From Roseburia sp. 499 (GTDB taxonomy: Bacteria > Bacillota > Clostridia > Lachnospirales > Lachnospiraceae), in contig NZ_CP135164.1 in the NCBI RefSeq assembly GCF_001940225.2, forward strand, positions 2,046,001 through 2,110,000: a stretch of DNA of 64,000 nt, given 5' to 3'. The position numbers and the translations under genes are program-made. The notes beneath the pieces are model-generated. The model had not been told where the DNA came from. It saw nothing but the letters and a program-made list of their open reading frames with translations, and did not search any database. Below, in pieces: positions 2,133 through 30,988 of this stretch (the first letter of the stretch is position 1; each line of letters opens with the position of its first letter).

Positions 2133-2921
2133 CTATTTTCTTCCGCAACATTTTTTATACTTCTTTCCCGAACCACACGGACAAGATTCATTAGGATAAA
2201 TCTTTCTACCAGAATTAAGCTGTATTTTCTTCTCTAATTTCTCAATACTTTTCAAAAGGCTATCTCTATTAGCTCTTCTTTTTCTATCTACTTTCAGTTC
2301 ATATTCTTCTTTCAAAGATTTTGAAATATTGCTTTCTTCCAATTCAGCAAATTCCTCTGACAATTCCCTATATAAATCTTCCGCATCACGATATTTATTC
2401 CCCGCTTTAATGTCAAAATACAAATCCTTCATTATGTCTATATAGTGAGGATTTTTCTGATCCTTAAACAAACGATAATATCCTATCCAACCCCAGCCCC
2501 ATAAGGGATCAGACTCAAGATATCCTTCATATAACTTATATGCTTTTTCTATTTCACCCATATCTGCATATGTATCCGCAATCTCACGTTTTGCATTTTC
2601 GTGAAACAAATCCGTATCACCGTTTCTTGACCACTGAATCTTCAAAATCTGCTCATTAACCGCTATTACATCCTTATACCGTCTGGTATTTTGCAATATC
2701 ATAGTTGTATCATTTGCCCAATTTCCAATCTGCCAATCTAAAACATTACTACCAAGTTGGTCAGAATAATTGTTTTCCCTTTCCATCAACCCCCATAACA
2801 GATTCCATGCTTCCAACGCTTTATCAGCTGTTTCGTCATTCTCGGGCAAATCTGGCAAAAAAGCCATAACAAAAGCATATTCAACTCTTTCTTCATCTCT
2901 TTCAGTAATAGCCATACTCAT
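2133..2921 (-). CDS. TPR-like protein with C-terminal SEC-C zinc motif
   Basis: The 262-residue protein ends in a clear SEC-C metal-binding motif, CPCGSGKKYKKCC, preceded by a basic helical segment (about 195-240). The central part (about 70-180) reads as helical hairpins typical of tetratricopeptide-like repeats, with spaced Ala, Tyr and Gly residues. SEC-C motifs are found in SecA and in many stand-alone proteins, some encoded in defence or mobile regions; the motif alone does not give a function. The start codon overlaps the stop of the upstream gene by ATGA, so the two are probably translationally coupled. No catalytic motif is visible. Confidence 0.8.
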   Translation of the reverse strand: MSMAITERDEERVEYAFVMAFLPDLPENDETADKALEAWNLLWGLMERENNYSDQLGSNVLDWQIGNWANDTTMILQNTRRYKDVIAVNEQILKIQWSRNGDTDLFHENAKREIADTYADMGEIEKAYKLYEGYLESDPLWGWGWIGYYRLFKDQKNPHYIDIMKDLYFDIKAGNKYRDAEDLYRELSEEFAELEESNISKSLKEEYELKVDRKRRANRDSLLKSIEKLEKKIQLNSGRKIYPNESCPCGSGKKYKKCCGRK

Positions 2922-3472
2922 CCCTCTTCAACCCACGGTATTGAATAGTATTCTCCGGCTATAAAGTCATCCATGCCCCAACCAAAACCGGAAAATTTAT
3001 GCAATATCGTTTCTAACCGATTCTTCCATAATTGATACAACTGTTCATCTCCACTTGCTATAATAACTGCGTCATGATATGCATCACCAAGTGCATCATA
3101 AAAAGCTTCATCTATATCGCCATAACACATAGTAAAGTCCGTTGCACATTCTGAAAAATACAATGCAAGGTCACCGTACCACCTGCCATCATCTCCCACA
3201 CATACATCTGCAAAATCAGACAATACCATCTGTGCTCTTTCTAACGAAAATCCTGTTCTTACAATATCAGAGGGATTAAATATTCTATACAATTGGCTCT
3301 TGTATTTCTCTAACAATGTATTTCCATAGTCCTCGCCTAATATCATAAGGCTCAATCCTGCCTCTACAGCCTTATTGGTCTTATAAAAATCAACAATAAT
3401 ATTCATTAACTCTTCTTTTCTCAATGATTCCAATTTTTTAACTAGTGCCTTTTCTGTTAATTTTTTTGCCAT
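2918..3472 (-). CDS. Hypothetical protein, possibly DUF6155-like
   Basis: This 184-residue soluble protein has an N-terminus (about 1-35) of the form KKLESLRKEELMNIIVDFYK, which resembles DUF6155-type proteins of Firmicutes; I am not certain of the family. The rest is acidic, rich in aromatic residues and mostly helical, with no signal peptide or catalytic motif. It overlaps the SEC-C gene by 4 bp and starts 1 bp after the stop of the 106-residue gene, so the three form one transcription unit. Function is unknown. Confidence 0.7.
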   Translation of the reverse strand: MAKKLTEKALVKKLESLRKEELMNIIVDFYKTNKAVEAGLSLMILGEDYGNTLLEKYKSQLYRIFNPSDIVRTGFSLERAQMVLSDFADVCVGDDGRWYGDLALYFSECATDFTMCYGDIDEAFYDALGDAYHDAVIIASGDEQLYQLWKNRLETILHKFSGFGWGMDDFIAGEYYSIPWVEEG

Positions 3473-3473
3473 A

Positions 3474-3794
3474 TTACCACTCCTTACTGATAATAAAATC
3501 CACTTTTTCCTTTAAATCATCACTAAATCCATCTAAATCATCCTTCGAAATCACACCCAGGTTAATCAGAGAAACAATATCATAAATCATATTGCTTTTT
3601 CTTAATTCGATAAGCACTCCCGGATTTTTTCTGTCTCTTTTGATTCGTTCTTCCAAATTCCAAAACTTATCTGATGCATTCCCTTCCCCTTTCAGCAAAT
3701 CAATATATTCTTTTACCAAACGTTCCATATAGTTTTCCTGCCATTCAGCAATACTTGATCTGAATAATTTCCAATCACTTTTTGAAACTTCCAT
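3474..3794 (-). CDS. Small conserved protein of unknown function
   Basis: I place the start at the ATG ending at 3794, not at the in-frame ATG 33 bp further upstream, because GGAGG lies 7 nt before 3794. The resulting 106-residue protein begins MEVSKSDWKLF and contains WQENYMERL and NPGVLIEL. It matches a small Firmicutes family I recognise by pattern, but its function is not known to me. It is soluble and helical with no cysteines or membrane segment. It is the first gene of the operon reading through the SEC-C gene and the recombinase, under the promoter at 3851-3879. Confidence 0.75.
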   Translation of the reverse strand: MEVSKSDWKLFRSSIAEWQENYMERLVKEYIDLLKGEGNASDKFWNLEERIKRDRKNPGVLIELRKSNMIYDIVSLINLGVISKDDLDGFSDDLKEKVDFIISKEW

Positions 3795-3850
3795 GCAAAC
3801 ATCCTCCAATCTTATGCATAATTTCATACGCTTTATATAGTCCCAACAAA

Positions 3851-3879
3851 ATTATATATCTGTTCCAACATTTTCTCAA
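3851..3879 (-). promoter_or_regulatory. Sigma-A-type promoter of the 3474-3794 operon
   Basis: On the minus strand TTGAGA and TATAAT are separated by exactly 17 bp. Transcription would begin about 50 bp before the 106-residue gene. It diverges from the promoter at 3986-4014, about 110 bp away. Confidence 0.7.
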
Positions 3880-3985
3880 CCAGTTTTTCTCTTATCAGGT
3901 ATAAACATATAAACTTCACATAATCCTTATCATAAACCCTTTAAAACTACATATAATATTATTGCAGATTTAGCCAAAATACCGC

Positions 3986-4014
3986 TTGCATTTAGCGGAT
4001 AATAATGGTATCAT
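3986..4014 (+). promoter_or_regulatory. Promoter of the small RNA upstream of the AbiF-like gene
   Basis: TTGCAT and TATCAT are separated by 17 bp. The predicted start near 4020 is about 10 nt before the first RNA stem and about 90 nt before the protein start, so the promoter serves first the RNA and, on read-through, the AbiF-like gene. Confidence 0.65.
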
Positions 4015-4019
4015 ATCTG

Positions 4020-4089
4020 TTAGTGATCAGGTTGCAGAAACTTGCGATGCCTGCGACCGGAAGGAAGACCTGCGGGCCTTCCTTTTTTT
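4020..4089 (+). ncRNA. Compact two-hairpin RNA upstream of abiF-like gene (abiF-RNA-like)
   Basis: Two stems abut each other. The first is GGTTGCAG (4030-4037) with CTGCGACC (4051-4058), 8 bp with one G-T pair and a 13-nt loop. The second is GGAAGG (4059-4064) with CCTTCC (4077-4082), followed by seven T. A promoter sits directly upstream. The layout (short structured RNA ending in an intrinsic terminator, then a HEPN Abi_2 gene 24 nt later) agrees with what I recall of the abiF RNA motif reported next to abiF genes. Membership of that motif is inference; the hairpins and T-tract are directly visible. Confidence 0.65.
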
Positions 4090-4112
4090 GTACAAAATAT
4101 ATGGAGAAAAAT

Positions 4113-5060
4113 ATGCCCAAAAAAGCAATCAAACCTTTTATTACATACTCTGATCAGTTAAATGTTCTGACTCAGAAAAAACAACTTAATATTTCTGATT
4201 TGTCATATGCTGAGGGAAAGCTGCATGATATTGGCTACTACTCCTTAATCGATGGATACAAAGATATATTCTACAATCCAATGACAAGAACATATGAGGA
4301 AGGCACAAATTTTACGGATATTGTTGCATTATATGAATTTGATGAAAATCTTCGTTCTCTTGTATTTAAATACATTTGTCATGTCGAGCAAAAAATCCGC
4401 TCATTGATTTCTTATTCCTTCTGTGAAGTTTTTTCTGAAAATCAGTCAGCGTATTTAAATCCTACCAACTACAATATTTCCAATAAAAACAGTCGTGATA
4501 TTACTAAACTAATATCTATATTGACATACGAAGCCAATCAGAACACCGAACATAGTTATGTTGTATATCAGAGAAACACATATGGTAATGTCCCATTATG
4601 GGTAATCATGAAAACTCTTACTCTTGGACAAACTTCAAAAATGTATTCATTTATGCTCCCAAGCATAAAATCCAAGGTTAGCGTACATTATGGCAATATT
4701 ACAGAAAAAGAATTAATACAGTATCTAAAGGTACTTACGGTCTTTCGTAATATATGCGCACATAACGAGCGTCTGTTTTCTTATGAATCTAGATTTGAGA
4801 TTCCTGACACCTCGCTACATAAGAAAATGAGGATACCCCAAAAAGGAATCCAGTATCTTTATGGCAAACACGATATGTTTGCTTTGCTCATAGCTTTTCG
4901 ATACCTACTGGATAAAGAAGATTTTAAATTTCTAAAGAAAGAATTAACCAAACTGTTTAATACTTTCTCCACTGCCACATCAGCAACCCAAAAAAGCAAA
5001 TTACTTTATGCAATGCATTTTCCATCTAATTGGGCAAATATTACCCAATATAAACTATAA
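4113..5060 (+). CDS. AbiF/AbiD (Abi_2) family HEPN protein, probable abortive-infection RNase
   Basis: I start the protein at 4113 (MPKKAIKPF, 315 residues) because GGAG lies 6 nt before; the open frame continues upstream to 4005 but there it crosses the RNA gene. It belongs to the Abi_2 family, with the typical N-terminal repeat-like block ending GYYSLIDGY, the conserved VEQKIRSLI block, and a C-terminal HEPN active-site motif RNICAH (Arg212, His217; R-X4-H). HEPN proteins of this type are metal-independent RNases, and Abi_2 members act against phage or as RNA-controlled toxins. No membrane segment is present. Its place between mobile cargo genes and the RNA in front support a defence role; activity is not shown by sequence alone. 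Confidence 0.88.
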   Translation: MPKKAIKPFITYSDQLNVLTQKKQLNISDLSYAEGKLHDIGYYSLIDGYKDIFYNPMTRTYEEGTNFTDIVALYEFDENLRSLVFKYICHVEQKIRSLISYSFCEVFSENQSAYLNPTNYNISNKNSRDITKLISILTYEANQNTEHSYVVYQRNTYGNVPLWVIMKTLTLGQTSKMYSFMLPSIKSKVSVHYGNITEKELIQYLKVLTVFRNICAHNERLFSYESRFEIPDTSLHKKMRIPQKGIQYLYGKHDMFALLIAFRYLLDKEDFKFLKKELTKLFNTFSTATSATQKSKLLYAMHFPSNWANITQYKL

Positions 5061-5072
5061 TATATTAATTAA

Positions 5073-5094
5073 CCTCCACCGTAACAGGTGGAGG
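5073..5094. terminator. Perfect 8-bp hairpin after the AbiF-like gene
   Basis: CCTCCACC and GGTGGAGG flank a 6-nt loop 12 bp past the stop codon at 5060. The T-tract on the plus strand is poor, so it may be a weak terminator or an mRNA-stabilising hairpin. Confidence 0.45.
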
Positions 5095-5229
5095 ACAACA
5101 CTTTCAACCCGACCATTTATATACCACTTATCGGTCAGTTATAAACTTTCATTCTTTCTACATTTGAACGCTCATCCATATGTATACATCCTACTTAATC
5201 AATTAAATCTTGCAGGATGCCGGTAATCC

Positions 5230-5424
5230 TTATGCTACTTTCTGAAAACTCGTTTGAAAGTTCTTCACATAAGCCAAATACCGCAGTCTTTTTCCTTCTG
5301 CATCATAGCCCCAAGTTTCCGGATCATAGTGAAGCTCTTCAAGTATATCTTGCATAACCAATAGCCCATATTTCTCCATCATCTCAGCCAGAAATGTGCA
5401 ACAGCGTTCAAATTCCTTGTTCAA
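5230..5424 (-). CDS. Small hypothetical protein with TTG start
   Basis: The 64-residue protein begins at a TTG codon with a strong site (GGAAGGAG, 7 nt upstream), which is why I accept it despite the unusual start. It is soluble, with two adjacent cysteines (about 8-9), a helical N-terminal half and a basic C-terminus. I do not recognise it. It stands alone between the AbiF-like gene and a long AT-rich spacer, in a region full of recombinase genes. Confidence 0.6.
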   Translation of the reverse strand: MNKEFERCCTFLAEMMEKYGLLVMQDILEELHYDPETWGYDAEGKRLRYLAYVKNFQTSFQKVA

Positions 5425-6120
5425 ACTGCTTCTCCTTCCATAGTTGCTTCTGCATCGTTTCTTACATATAAAATTGTAATTACTTCATATACCAATGATA
5501 CAACCACGACTCAGAAAAAGCAATAATTCAAGCATATATAAAAATTTGTCGTTAAATAAAAATTTGTTTTCTGATTATCGAGCTCATAATTCGCTGCAAT
5601 AATTTTCTCATGTCCATGGCAAGATACGCATTAGAGACGTCTCTGCCTCCTCCAATGCATCTTGTCAGGGAACTTCCCCTAAACCCCCTGTTATTTATAC
5701 CTTTACTGAAAAATATGGAGTAAAATTGCTCATTTGCACCAAAATATGGAGTATTCCTGCCATTTTCCAGTAAAAAACGGGTGATATGCTTTTGCCCACA
5801 AATGAATGGATTTTTAAAGTACAGTAAAATTTGAAGTAAAAAATACATTTCACATTGAAATATGATGTATTTCAGAGCTTTTACCTAAAAAAATAATGTG
5901 CTCTTTTTTCCAACTATTTTAGCACATGAAAAACTGATGTAAAAATGAAATTTTACTGTAAAATACGCACCATTATAGTATTAATTTGCATCCATAAACT
6001 TTTCACAAAAGTTTAATTTTATGCTACCACAATTGTCGTTATGAGAAGGTTGCTTAATTACTGAATAAGTGTTTCTCCCACTGGATGTCTATACTAATTC
6101 GTTGGGACAAAGAAAATGAT
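5425..6120. other. AT-rich spacer with short direct repeats
   Basis: No supported gene is present. The motif AAATATGGAGTA occurs twice near 5710 and 5750, related strings with AGTAAAATTT recur near 5820 and 5950, and the tract is very AT-rich. A 98-codon minus-strand frame (5552-5848) has no ribosome binding site or family resemblance. The stretch next to 5425 on the minus strand probably holds the promoter of the 64-residue gene. Confidence 0.45.
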
Positions 6121-6178
6121 ACAATCTTAACGATTGTACCATTTGGGGTGTTCAAAGGGGTGTTCATTTGAACACCCC
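6121..6178. repeat. Palindromes beside the truncated msr(D) gene
   Basis: ACAATC and GATTGT form an inverted repeat at 6121-6137. GGGGTGTTCA occurs twice (6145 and 6157), and the second copy forms a perfect 10-bp palindrome with TGAACACCCC (6169-6178). The cluster lies 11 bp beyond the stop of the msr(D) fragment and may be a recombination junction, operator or transcription stop. Confidence 0.55.
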
Positions 6179-6189
6179 TACTAAATGCA

Positions 6190-6360
6190 TTATTTCTTGT
6201 TAAATTCAGTATCCTTAACAAAGGTCCAAACTGAAAGTTTTCTACGCATCGCTTTTCTATTTTGGGTGGAATTTGTTAACGAAACTAATTCATCTATATC
6301 TAAACAAGTGCGTCCTTTAAATTCCACACGAATGTCTTTTGCTTTTAATATCAATTCCAT
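6190..6360 (-). pseudogene. msr(D): Truncated msr(D)-type ABC-F ribosome protection gene
   Basis: The fragment starts MELILKAKDIRVEFKG, the recognisable N-terminus of Msr(D), an ABC-F protein that removes macrolides from the ribosome. Similarity stops after DIDEL at about residue 25, before the first Walker A motif, and 31 unrelated codons follow to a stop. Of about 487 residues only 56 codons remain open, so it cannot function. It keeps its strong ribosome site (AGGAGG) and its leader at 6440-6460. It follows mef(A) as in the classical mef-msr operon; the deletion removed nearly the whole gene. Confidence 0.88.
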
Positions 6361-6405
6361 AACATTTTCCTCCTGTCTATAATCGCATGTTTTCATTTGC
6401 TTGTA

Positions 6406-6423
6406 CGCAGGGAAAACCCTGCG
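6406..6423 (-). terminator. Attenuator hairpin of the msr(D) leader
   Basis: CGCAGGG and CCCTGCG flank an AAAA loop (7 perfect pairs) just after the MYLIFM leader and before the msr(D) start. In the known mef-msr operon this position holds the stalling-controlled terminator. No T-run follows directly here, so its strength is uncertain. Confidence 0.6.
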
Positions 6424-6439
6424 ATTTTAGCAGGAAAAA

Positions 6440-6460
6440 TTACATGAAAATTAAATACAT
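6440..6460 (-). CDS. msrDL: Leader peptide MYLIFM of msr(D)
   Basis: A six-codon frame reads MYLIFM and stop, preceded by AGGAGGG. It is identical to the peptide known as MsrDL, which senses macrolide-bound ribosomes and controls msr(D) transcription. It lies between the mef(A) stop and the msr(D) fragment. The regulated gene is now destroyed, so the leader is a relic. Confidence 0.85.
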   Translation of the reverse strand: MYLIFM

Positions 6461-6473
6461 AAAAATGGCCCTC

Positions 6474-7700
6474 CTATGAATTTTGTTTTAAATCTAATTT
6501 TCTAATCTCAGTTATCATTGGGCAAACTATTGCAATGCAAATAATTAAAATACCTGATAGTAAAAACCAATGATTTACACCGATTCTATCAGCAAAGAAT
6601 CCAGAAAGAATTAACCCAATTGGCATAGCAAGAGACATGATACTTCCAGTTAAAGAAAATACACGTCCTAAATATTCAGGCTTAATTTTCTCCTGAAAAA
6701 GAGCTGTTTGCACACCGCTGTAAAACGGAACCGAAAGCCCCATTATTGCACAGCAGACTACAAATATGAAAAATCCACTTTGGGGAAGTAATCCTGAAAT
6801 GGTTAAGCTTATCCCCATCATAAAAATGGATGCCGTTATTAATAAGATTCGCTTTTGGTAATTCCCAAATAACCCTAATAATAGACCCCCTATCAACATA
6901 CCAGAGGCATAAGCAATCTCCGTAATAGAACTATGCATCGGTGTACCATTAAAATATTCCATAGTGATTAAAGGATATAATGCATTTATGGGCATATAAA
7001 CAAACATATATAATGTTCCAACGAGTAATAAAGCGAATAATCCTTTATTTTGCCGTAGTACAGCCATTCCTTCTTTCATTTCTCGTATGAAATTTGGTTT
7101 CAAACTTTGCACTTGATCACCCAGCTTAGGAATACGTACAATTGCTACCGTAATAGATGCAATCACAGCACCCAATACATCGATGGCAATAATAGCATTT
7201 AGTTCCCAAACGGAGTATAAGAGTGCTGCAACCGCCGGACTAACAATATAGCTTATAGACTGCAAAGACTGACTATAGCCTGCACATTTCGTAAGCTGTT
7301 CTTCTGGTACTAAAAGTGGCGTAACCGCATTGAGAGCCGGGGTGTGAAAAGCTGTTCCAATGCTACGGATAAACAATACTACCATAACCATCCAGATAGG
7401 TAGCTCCATATACAATGCAACAATAGCAAGCACTGCCCCAGCTGCTGCGATAATTAAATCAGCACCAATCATTATCTTCTTCCTATCATGACGATCCACT
7501 AATACACCAATAGCTGGTCCAAAGACCGCATAGGGTAAAAAACCTACTAGTGAAGCCATAGACAAGACCATCGCAGATCCTGTTTTCTCTGTAAGGTAAA
7601 AAATGATCGCCATTTGCAGGATGGCACTAGTGATTAATGATACTGCCTGCCCTGCCCATATTGTATAAAACTTAAGTTTCCAATTGTTGTATTTTTCCAT
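6474..7700 (-). CDS. mef(A): Mef(A)-family macrolide efflux transporter (MFS)
   Basis: The 408-residue protein begins MEKYNNWKLKFYTIWAGQA and follows Mef(A)/Mef(E) closely from end to end as I remember those sequences (about 405 residues). It is a major facilitator superfamily antiporter with twelve predicted membrane segments and the MFS loop motif GVLVDRHDRKK after the second helix. It exports 14- and 15-membered macrolides by the proton gradient. It is intact, has its own promoter (7859-7887) and a drug-sensing leader (7792-7818), and is followed by the msr(D) relic. Because Mef works best together with Msr(D), resistance from this copy alone may be modest. Exact allele naming needs a database comparison. 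Confidence 0.93.
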   Translation of the reverse strand: MEKYNNWKLKFYTIWAGQAVSLITSAILQMAIIFYLTEKTGSAMVLSMASLVGFLPYAVFGPAIGVLVDRHDRKKIMIGADLIIAAAGAVLAIVALYMELPIWMVMVVLFIRSIGTAFHTPALNAVTPLLVPEEQLTKCAGYSQSLQSISYIVSPAVAALLYSVWELNAIIAIDVLGAVIASITVAIVRIPKLGDQVQSLKPNFIREMKEGMAVLRQNKGLFALLLVGTLYMFVYMPINALYPLITMEYFNGTPMHSSITEIAYASGMLIGGLLLGLFGNYQKRILLITASIFMMGISLTISGLLPQSGFFIFVVCCAIMGLSVPFYSGVQTALFQEKIKPEYLGRVFSLTGSIMSLAMPIGLILSGFFADRIGVNHWFLLSGILIICIAIVCPMITEIRKLDLKQNS

Positions 7701-7744
7701 TTATATTATCTCCTGCATATTATTTTGCTTGAATTTCTAACAAC

Positions 7745-7782
7745 AAAAAAGCCTATCATCGGGGATAGATTCTGCTTTTTTT
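7745..7782 (-). terminator. Transcription attenuator between the mef leader and mef(A)
   Basis: On the minus strand CTATC and GATAG flank CCCGAT, extended outward by AAAAAAGC and GCTTTTTT, so the stem ends in a T-run. It lies just after the MTASMRLR leader and about 45 bp before mef(A). This fits the known model in which a macrolide-stalled ribosome on the leader prevents termination. Confidence 0.75.
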
Positions 7783-7791
7783 ATTGCCAGC

Positions 7792-30721: not shown

Positions 30722-30988
30722 CGTGCGTATCGTTCGGTACACGGCAGTTCAATCAACTTAACAGGTAGTAATCTAACATAGAGATTAGTCCAAATGAGAT
30801 TGTTGTGATATAACTTATCTCCCAGAATTTAGCCTTATATGTGATTTCTGTTCTTCAGACCAGAGGTTTGCCTACAACTTCTTTCAGATTCCACCTCACG
30901 CTGGACACCCTTGCTGTTCGGCTATACATTTCCCACTACCTAGGCATGTTCGGGACTTGTACCCGTTAGAGCGCGCCCATGGCGCGCA
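30722..30988 (-). mobile_element. Group II intron 5' fragment
   Basis: On the minus strand the sequence has the layout of domain I of a bacterial group II intron: GC-rich 5' hairpin (GCGCGCC...GGCGCGC), TAACGGGTACAAGTCCCGAAC, GTGGAATCTGAAAGAAG, and a late GCCGTGTACCGAACGATACG stem. No reverse transcriptase or domain V is present, so only about 270 bp of about 2-2.5 kb remain. Identification rests on my memory of intron sequences; the hairpins are visible. Confidence 0.7.

Follow-up and report, generated by a model that had tools for sequence, protein, structure and literature searches.

The window (the whole stretch of 64,000 nucleotides analysed here, from Roseburia sp. 499) carries at positions 4113–5060 of its plus strand an abiF-like gene encoding a 315-residue protein, a candidate Abi_2/HEPN RNase toxin. 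The full-length protein matches Abi_2 (PF07751) with 163.4 bits, above the cut-off of 25.6, and is labelled AbiD by PADLOC; a search of NCBIfam gave no match. It is the sole Abi_2 match in its own 3.38-Mb genome. With this protein as query, phmmer retrieved one solved relative, 8vz6 (E 9e-15), which a profile built from 44 relatives reached at 2.9e-31. An AlphaFold2 model (pLDDT 95.4) led to the same structure: in the fold search PbAbiF (8vz6) was matched at E 4.8e-11, with TM scores of 0.77/0.81 and 21% identity in the fold alignment, and nothing else, including any Cas13 chain, appeared at E ≤ 0.001.

The HEPN R-X4-H motif, which a preliminary description of this DNA had reported as intact, is indeed complete (R212-N-I-C-A-H217, with R212 encoded at 4746–4748 and H217 at 4761–4763). 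R212, N213, A216 and H217 are invariant across 44 aligned proteins, and there is a single R-X4-H region. The listed open reading frame (4005–5060, 351 aa) runs in frame through the RNA segment described below; a start at 4113 rather than 4005 is favoured by a GGAG ribosome-binding site read from the sequence (4103–4106, plus strand) and by the start of the homologues. This ATG lies 23 nt past the T run of that RNA, where 24 nt had first been noted. Together, the profile match and the predicted structure support the assignment of the protein to the AbiF family of HEPN proteins. By analogy with the RNase activity and toxicity of published relatives, it is a probable RNA-cutting toxin.

R1 is a conserved two-hairpin RNA upstream of the gene

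The promoter claimed ahead of the RNA could be recognised by eye. It is a predicted sigma-A promoter (3986–4014, plus strand) with a weak -35 box, TTGCAT (3986–3991), a 17-nt spacer and an extended -10 element, TGgTATCAT (4006–4014). Since the -35 box keeps just three of the six consensus bases, the promoter is missing from the output of a consensus scan. Many homologues have, by eye, a better TTGAC-type -35 box, together with a -10 box, at about the same place.

The segment of about 70 nt with two hairpins and seven T residues that had been described corresponds to a 68-nt RNA, R1 (4022–4089, plus strand), a candidate antitoxin delimited by a covariance model, by strong covariation and by its linkage to an AbiF clade. 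The window RNA scores 81.8 bits against this model, the window itself being among the model's sequences. Hairpin 1 (4031–4057, plus strand) consists of a 7-bp covarying stem, GTTGCAG (4031–4037) with CTGCGAC (4051–4057), around the conserved 13-nt loop AAACTTGCGATGC (4038–4050), and an extra pair joins 4030 and 4058. Hairpin 2 and the T7 run (4059–4089, plus strand; hairpin approximately 4059–4086, T7 at 4083–4089) form a predicted intrinsic terminator, as read from the sequence and indicated by folding and covariation, with a mostly conserved tip.

We aligned 31 R1 sequences, one of them the window RNA and the rest taken from 29 further loci, of which L022 contributes two tandem copies. The preliminary description had named beforehand a lack of stem covariation among homologues as the finding that would speak against it. 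RNAalifold found 16 pairs, 12 of which show two-sided changes. Among the 496 cells of the alignment 97.6% are paired (80.6% in shuffles), 84 are changed on both sides (22.4 in shuffles) and the covariation score is 0.665 (0.310 in shuffles); none of 500 shuffles reached the paired fraction or the covariation score, and shifting the pair partners by 1–3 columns abolished the signal. Stem 1 is paired in all 31 sequences, with two-sided changes at five of its seven pairs, and one C and three G residues of its loop are invariant. At the tip of hairpin 2 most sequences read CC-UGCG-GG or, by a two-sided change, CA-UGCG-UG, and a few have other tetraloops (UGAG, UGUG, CGAG, CGCG and GCUU). It is this comparative evidence that settles the reality of R1, since the single window sequence, when folded, exceeded chance only moderately (z -2.57, with 1 of 200 shuffles doing equally well).

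The gene had also been credited with a dedicated abiF RNA motif. A structured RNA linked to the gene throughout its clade (see below) was found, but it is not the abiF RNA of Rfam: the expected match to that model, RF03085, failed to appear in the RNA segment (3930–4140) at E values up to 10, in the window at the gathering score (37) or in the window's own genome, and the identification was therefore rejected. At gathering scores, Rfam 15 gave two matches in the window, both away from R1, a group II intron D1-D4-3 (30723–30905, minus strand) and the Enterococcus sRNA_1300 (7740–7789, minus strand). R1 reaches no Rfam 15 threshold and is, as judged from these searches, an RNA class distinct from RF03085.

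R1 follows one clade of AbiF proteins

The R1 model was searched against genome samples of the window's family, Lachnospiraceae (299 genomes), of its order (246) and of its phylum (299). It matched 63 genomes of the family sample, 17 of the order sample (12 from Lachnospiraceae and 5 from two other families) and 3 of the phylum sample, all from Lachnospiraceae and none outside it. R1 is thus rarely met outside this family. On plasmids, blastn with the window RNA gave no convincing R1, with two matches of 21–26 bases at E 1.

Seventy-one R1 matches of at least 45 bits were counted, 11 matches of 23–30 bits being left out. Forty of them lie at most 400 nt upstream of a same-strand Abi_2 match (partial in 5 cases) and 2 at most 400 nt downstream of one, as measured with 47 Abi_2 rows. 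The other 29 have no intact Abi_2 gene nearby and by eye share their contig with no row of the Abi_2 table, which shows that R1 is not an obligate partner of the toxin. Beside four of these solo copies (L127, L128, L137 and L140) an Abi_2 fragment was detected by HMM and beside two (L129 and L132) a short N-terminal remnant was seen by eye; one (L151) lies at a contig end, and the fetched flanks of the remaining 22 hold no Abi_2 trace.

In a tree of 87 Abi_2 proteins, from which L006 and L007 were dropped as too short, one branch of 48 rows (support 98/94) makes up the R1 clade. The association of the RNA with close abiF homologues, a further point of the preliminary description, holds for 46 of these 48 rows, where R1 is found upstream; in L016 it is found downstream only, and for L037 the contig breaks off on the upstream side. 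Ten rows with RF03085-type matches (39–42 bits in 2 and 33–36.7 bits in 8, for a cut-off of 37) fall outside the clade. This placement indicates that R1 follows one AbiF protein clade. On sequence grounds, the locus is a unit of known kind whose RNA class lies outside Rfam 15 at threshold and is tied to one AbiF clade; because the RNA class tracks the protein clade, toxin-RNA recognition should be readable from natural covariation.

Several other arrangements were observed. Outside the R1 clade, several types of hairpin-like stretch, each common to two or three loci, were seen by eye upstream of Abi_2 genes (L058/L059/L075, L060/L076, L071/L079/L080 and L066/L068/L073). Tandem upstream copies of R1 occur in L022 only (248–382). 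R1 flanks the abi gene on both sides in L023 (2469–2536) and in the phage record L171 (232–299 and 1322–1389), and it stands behind the gene only in L016 (2143–2209), a position at odds with control by terminator read-through.

A second effector beside solo R1 was considered and rejected: ten neighbours at ten loci belong to mostly unrelated families (zeta toxin twice, AAA, HAD, GNAT, CBAH, GreA, nucleotidyltransferase and exonuclease, one being without match). In two genera, solo R1 (L131, 5000–5066; L138, 4866–4932) stands in the same arrangement ahead of a small ORF, seen by eye, and a zeta-toxin-like gene. A RelBE-like pair and phage-tail-like genes (by eye) accompany solo R1 in the bacterial contig L133 (1615–1681), and the same setting was seen by eye for solo R1 in the viral records L156 (2557–2623) and L157 (5102–5168).

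A compact unit in a possibly mobile neighbourhood

Comparison of L001–L007 and L169 with the window by blastn delimits a unit that L002–L005 have in other contexts (3915–5108 at its outermost limits, plus strand). These four loci, with 87–96% DNA identity, match the window from 3915–3946 to 5065–5108, that is, approximately 1.15 kb containing promoter, RNA and gene only. L001 (97%) matches 3666–5065 plus a 57-base piece of the recombinase gene. Two loci cut by contig ends extend the match, L006 from 3837, with 65 additional bases at 5394–5456, and L007 up to 5231. A large serine recombinase gene (441–2120), TnpV, an IS3-like transposase and a second serine recombinase are found near the unit. 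The suggestion that the unit is cargo of a mobile element is plausible in view of this shared segment and these neighbours, which would fit a mobile neighbourhood.

Two further features of this region were recorded. Three divergent genes (2133–3827, minus strand), one encoding a SEC-C protein and two without Pfam match, lie between the serine recombinase gene and the AbiF unit, and a nucleotidyltransferase of the aminoglycoside-2''-adenylyltransferase type (PF10706; 8735–9229, minus strand) lies among transposon genes.

R1 occurs in viral records and in phage tRNA arrays

Nineteen IMG/VR records with R1 were obtained with DNA patterns followed by the R1 model at 41 bits or more. Abi_2 is present in 6 of them (L152–L155, L158 and L159), and no Abi_2 match was found anywhere in the record for the other 13. 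These 13 are not independent, as L165–L167 have the same RNA and neighbours, as do L163 and L168, and L156 resembles L157; for several of them, short fragments of 4.5 to 25 kb, the absence of Abi_2 says little. The record of L165 is 170,146 bases long. All three GenBank fecal phage records with R1 (L169–L171) have Abi_2. Peptide patterns from the window AbiF found nothing in viral_contigs. A looser R1 DNA pattern gave 23 new loci, with R1 in L208 only, and another pattern gave only L172, without R1.

In L165, an array of eight tRNAs has R1 (2474–2540) between its tRNA-Met and tRNA-Arg genes, at distances of 0 and 2 nt, and in L168 (5598–5664) R1 occupies the same slot, 4 and 2 nt away. Both copies keep hairpin 2 but are devoid of the U tract. 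The two RNAs are 91% identical (61/67), with one two-sided stem change among the differences, to be compared with 55% for tRNA-Met, 68% for tRNA-Arg, 63% for tRNA-Thr, and 75.5 and 58.7% for two neighbouring genes.

The group of large phages to which these arrays belong was defined by a neighbouring DNA-binding protein and contains 8 distinct lineages in 11 records. R1 was found in three lineages (L174–L176, L178–L179 and L231). The last of these, which is the L208 record (2254–2309, 50.9 bits), has stem 1 (GTTGCAG/CTGCGAC) intact, a loop shrunk to 4 nt by the loss of 9 nt, and no tRNA-Arg after it; the shortened loop counts against a simple full mimic. In a fourth lineage, L232 (a record of 174,761 bases), tRNA-Met (2344–2421) is followed by an RF03085 RNA (2429–2465; 39.6 bits for a cut-off of 37, E 6.6e-7 for the record), and the record has no Abi_2 match. 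For L177, L180, L181 and L230 neither RNA class was found in the fetched stretch, and their records contain no RF03085. In total, tRNA-Met stands at the slot in five of the eight lineages (in L180 by Rfam at 34 bits, with the anticodon read by eye), and an AbiF-class RNA lies behind it in four of these five.

Structured-looking stretches between phage tRNAs were also seen by eye in L180 (2130–2200 and 2278–2392) and L230 (2258–2376); the second and third resemble each other, and neither matches Rfam at E 0.5. To look for a host of the array phages, a 10-kb stretch was compared with the 299 family genomes; no match convincingly resembled a spacer, and the best one (197 nt, 74%) has the appearance of a gene common to both.

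The alternation of two AbiF antitoxin classes in one slot would be difficult to account for if these RNAs had no action on AbiF. The balance of evidence leans towards phages carrying stand-alone AbiF RNA antitoxins as dedicated anti-defence genes, with R1 and RF03085 alternating behind tRNA-Met, and solo phage R1 may disarm an AbiF toxin. tRNA processing could free an array RNA that has no promoter or terminator of its own. A literature search that did not cover the key 2025 Cell paper found no published proposal of AbiF antitoxin RNAs in phage tRNA arrays, and we make no claim of priority; the main text of Fremin and Bhatt (2021), as far as available, contains no Abi motif.

RF03085 RNAs without Abi_2 in other phages

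When the RF03085 stretch of L232 was compared by blastn with 50,697 phage records, 27 of them matched at E ≤ 1, some no better than chance. Seven of the matching records, including L234–L238 from isolated phages, were examined with Rfam. RF03085 is above its cut-off in three of the seven (Aeromonas phages PT2 and T7-Ah and Salicola phage CGphi29, 44–51 bits) and below it in fecal phage L239 (34.2 bits), Rhizobium phage Pasto (L236, 30.3 bits) and fecal phage L240 (28.6 bits). In the isolated phages, of Bacillus, Aeromonas, Rhizobium and Salicola, the solo RF03085-like RNAs are intergenic and three of the five pass the cut-off. For Bacillus phage SBSphiJ5 (L234), whose matching region has five tRNAs, blastn aligned 38 bases (E 0.008) and Rfam gave no RF03085 at E 0.5; the stretch is common to 18 Bacillus phage records by blastn.

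None of the seven examined stretches has an Abi_2 match, which is uninformative for L239, whose record ends 46 bases past the RNA, where the gene would start. T7-like phages such as PT2 are lytic, and none of the 44 annotated genes of PT2 is named Abi. A tblastn search with the window protein returned 70 phage records, none from an Aeromonas, Bacillus, Salicola or Rhizobium phage. In fecal phage L240 (3004–3415) the RF03085-like RNA is followed about 310 nt further on by a DUF3800-VIII RNA (76.7 bits), and antitoxin-like RNAs may be clustered there. A role of the abiF sRNA in phages was called unconfirmed in the available part of a 2025 review (PMC12197685), and three phages besides S-CREM1 are mentioned as having this sRNA according to Rfam (PMC9964418, available part).

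A model for the locus and its phage counterparts

The gene family, the catalytic motif, the predicted fold, the conserved covarying RNA, the order of the parts and the tie of R1 to its clade come directly from the analyses above. As the same parts stand in the same order as in the AbiFCd and PbAbiF relatives, we infer the same working cycle. By this analogy, the locus is very likely an AbiF-type (type-III-like) toxin-antitoxin system and a probable abortive-infection unit, whose toxin R1 would neutralise. Transcription would begin at about 4022 from the single promoter, the majority of transcripts would end at hairpin 2, giving an excess of the 68-nt R1, and rare read-through would provide the toxin mRNA. 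R1 would use hairpin 1 with its conserved loop, and probably the conserved tip of hairpin 2 as well, to bind the HEPN dimer and keep the RNase off; as published relatives suggest for neutralisation and defence, it probably keeps the toxin silent. Infection or stress would lower the ratio of R1 to protein, and the freed toxin would cut RNA and stop growth. Phages would in turn oppose AbiF with AbiF-antitoxin RNAs of their own.

In our reading hairpin 2 probably belongs to the antitoxin fold besides terminating transcription, given the conservation of its tip and its retention, between tRNA genes and without the U tract, in two phage lineages. However, the major 3' end of RCd22 is described as lying upstream of its terminator (PMC12373285, available part), by which hairpin 2 may be a terminator only.

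That R1 is instead a cis-acting leader or attenuator, setting expression of the gene without acting on the protein, would agree with the order promoter, RNA, terminator, ribosome-binding site and gene, and RCd22 too is reported to lower expression through its terminator (PMC12373285, available part). Conserved loop letters inside both hairpins, R1 copies behind the gene in L016, L023 and the phage contig L171, stand-alone copies with their stem pairs kept and phage copies sitting between tRNAs without a U tract all argue against it and make it improbable. Still less credible, to the point of being hardly conceivable, is a Cas13-like system in which R1 would be the guide of an RNA-targeting effector. 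AbiF and the ancestors of Cas13 have the HEPN fold in common (PMC12737573, available part), but no direct repeat of 20 nt or more, and hence no repeat-spacer array, is present in 3000–6500, both sides of stem 1 stay complementary in 31 of 31 sequences, and 8vz6 alone was reached at E ≤ 0.001 in the fold search. Membership in Cas13, defined by two HEPN domains and a CRISPR array, was rejected on the single R-X4-H region and the absence of array repeats in 3000–6500.

The stand-alone copies of bacteria and phages could also be functionless relics that outlived a lost toxin gene, which we regard as rather doubtful. Solo antitoxins are an expected product of decay, the Abi_2 remnants at 6 of the 29 bacterial solo copies (4 by HMM and 2 by eye) fit it, detection by a covariance model is biased to intact copies, and in the phage copy L208 the conserved loop is 9 nt shorter. 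Against decay, 30 distinct solo RNAs, in an alignment fitted to the R1 model, keep 97.9% of their pair cells (100% in helix 1), with 101 cells changed on both sides. The set comprised 31 RNAs, 22 bacterial and 9 viral; of the 29 bacterial copies it omits the 7 that have a remnant or lie at a contig end, and of the viral ones the near-identical L163, L166 and L167. The 91% identity of the L165 and L168 RNAs, compared with 55–68% for the tRNAs and 59–76% for the neighbouring genes, also counts against decay, although a recent exchange of the RNA alone between the two lineages is possible. Finally, an RF03085 RNA in the same slot of the L232 lineage is hard to reconcile with decay.

The reading of R1 as an AbiF antitoxin gains its main interest outside the window, from phages that appear to bear the antitoxin but not the toxin. 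Phage tRNA arrays in which AbiF antitoxins look interchangeable offer a directly testable case of RNA-encoded anti-defence. If this is true, the same strategy would account for the RF03085 RNAs that stand alone in T7-like, Bacillus and cyanobacterial phages, small intergenic and tRNA-array RNAs would be a place to seek counter-defence, and the toxins met by a phage could be inferred from its RNAs.

Comparison with known systems

The closest system is AbiFCd/RCd22 of the C. difficile phi027 prophage, described in the available part of PMC12373285. RCd22 neutralises the toxic AbiFCd protein in cis and in trans by direct binding, and the locus has one promoter and a terminator between RNA and gene. 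The window resembles it in having an Abi_2 protein, a promoter-driven upstream RNA, a terminator and a short gap. RCd22 differs in containing two RF03085 motifs and a separate terminator, whereas R1 has one different motif whose hairpin 2 would itself be the terminator. RF03085 and R1 are both small structured RNAs ahead of Abi_2 genes, also found in phages, and a GAUGC-like loop stretch, seen by eye, may be common to both; the stem layout and sequence of RF03085 are different, and its Abi_2 genes lie outside the R1 clade.

PbAbiF, solved with its AbiFr RNA (8vz6), is described as a dimer with one RNA per monomer (PMC12737573, available part). It is like the window protein in its fold over most of the length and in the HEPN R-X4-H motif, and unlike it in sequence (21% identity in the fold alignment); the comparison covers the proteins. 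Type III toxin-antitoxin systems have RNA gene, terminator and toxin gene in one transcription unit; the window shows this order and the conserved terminator in its sequence, the co-transcription being putative. Their tandem antitoxin repeats have no equivalent in the window, which has one R1.

The phage RNAs also have precedents. The pseudo-ToxI RNA of phage PhiTE mimics the antitoxin of the type III system ToxIN and allows escape (PMC3475682, available part), and R1 phages would likewise oppose an RNA antitoxin system with a phage-borne mimic RNA. PhiTE needs repeat expansion or recombination, whereas here single RNAs are found in environmental phage records, some of them within tRNA arrays. 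The lytic cyanophage S-CREM1, which has many tRNA genes, bears an abiF sRNA expected by its authors to act during infection; in the available part of that report (PMC9964418) this RF03085 RNA is discussed as a regulatory sRNA and not as an antitoxin against AbiF.
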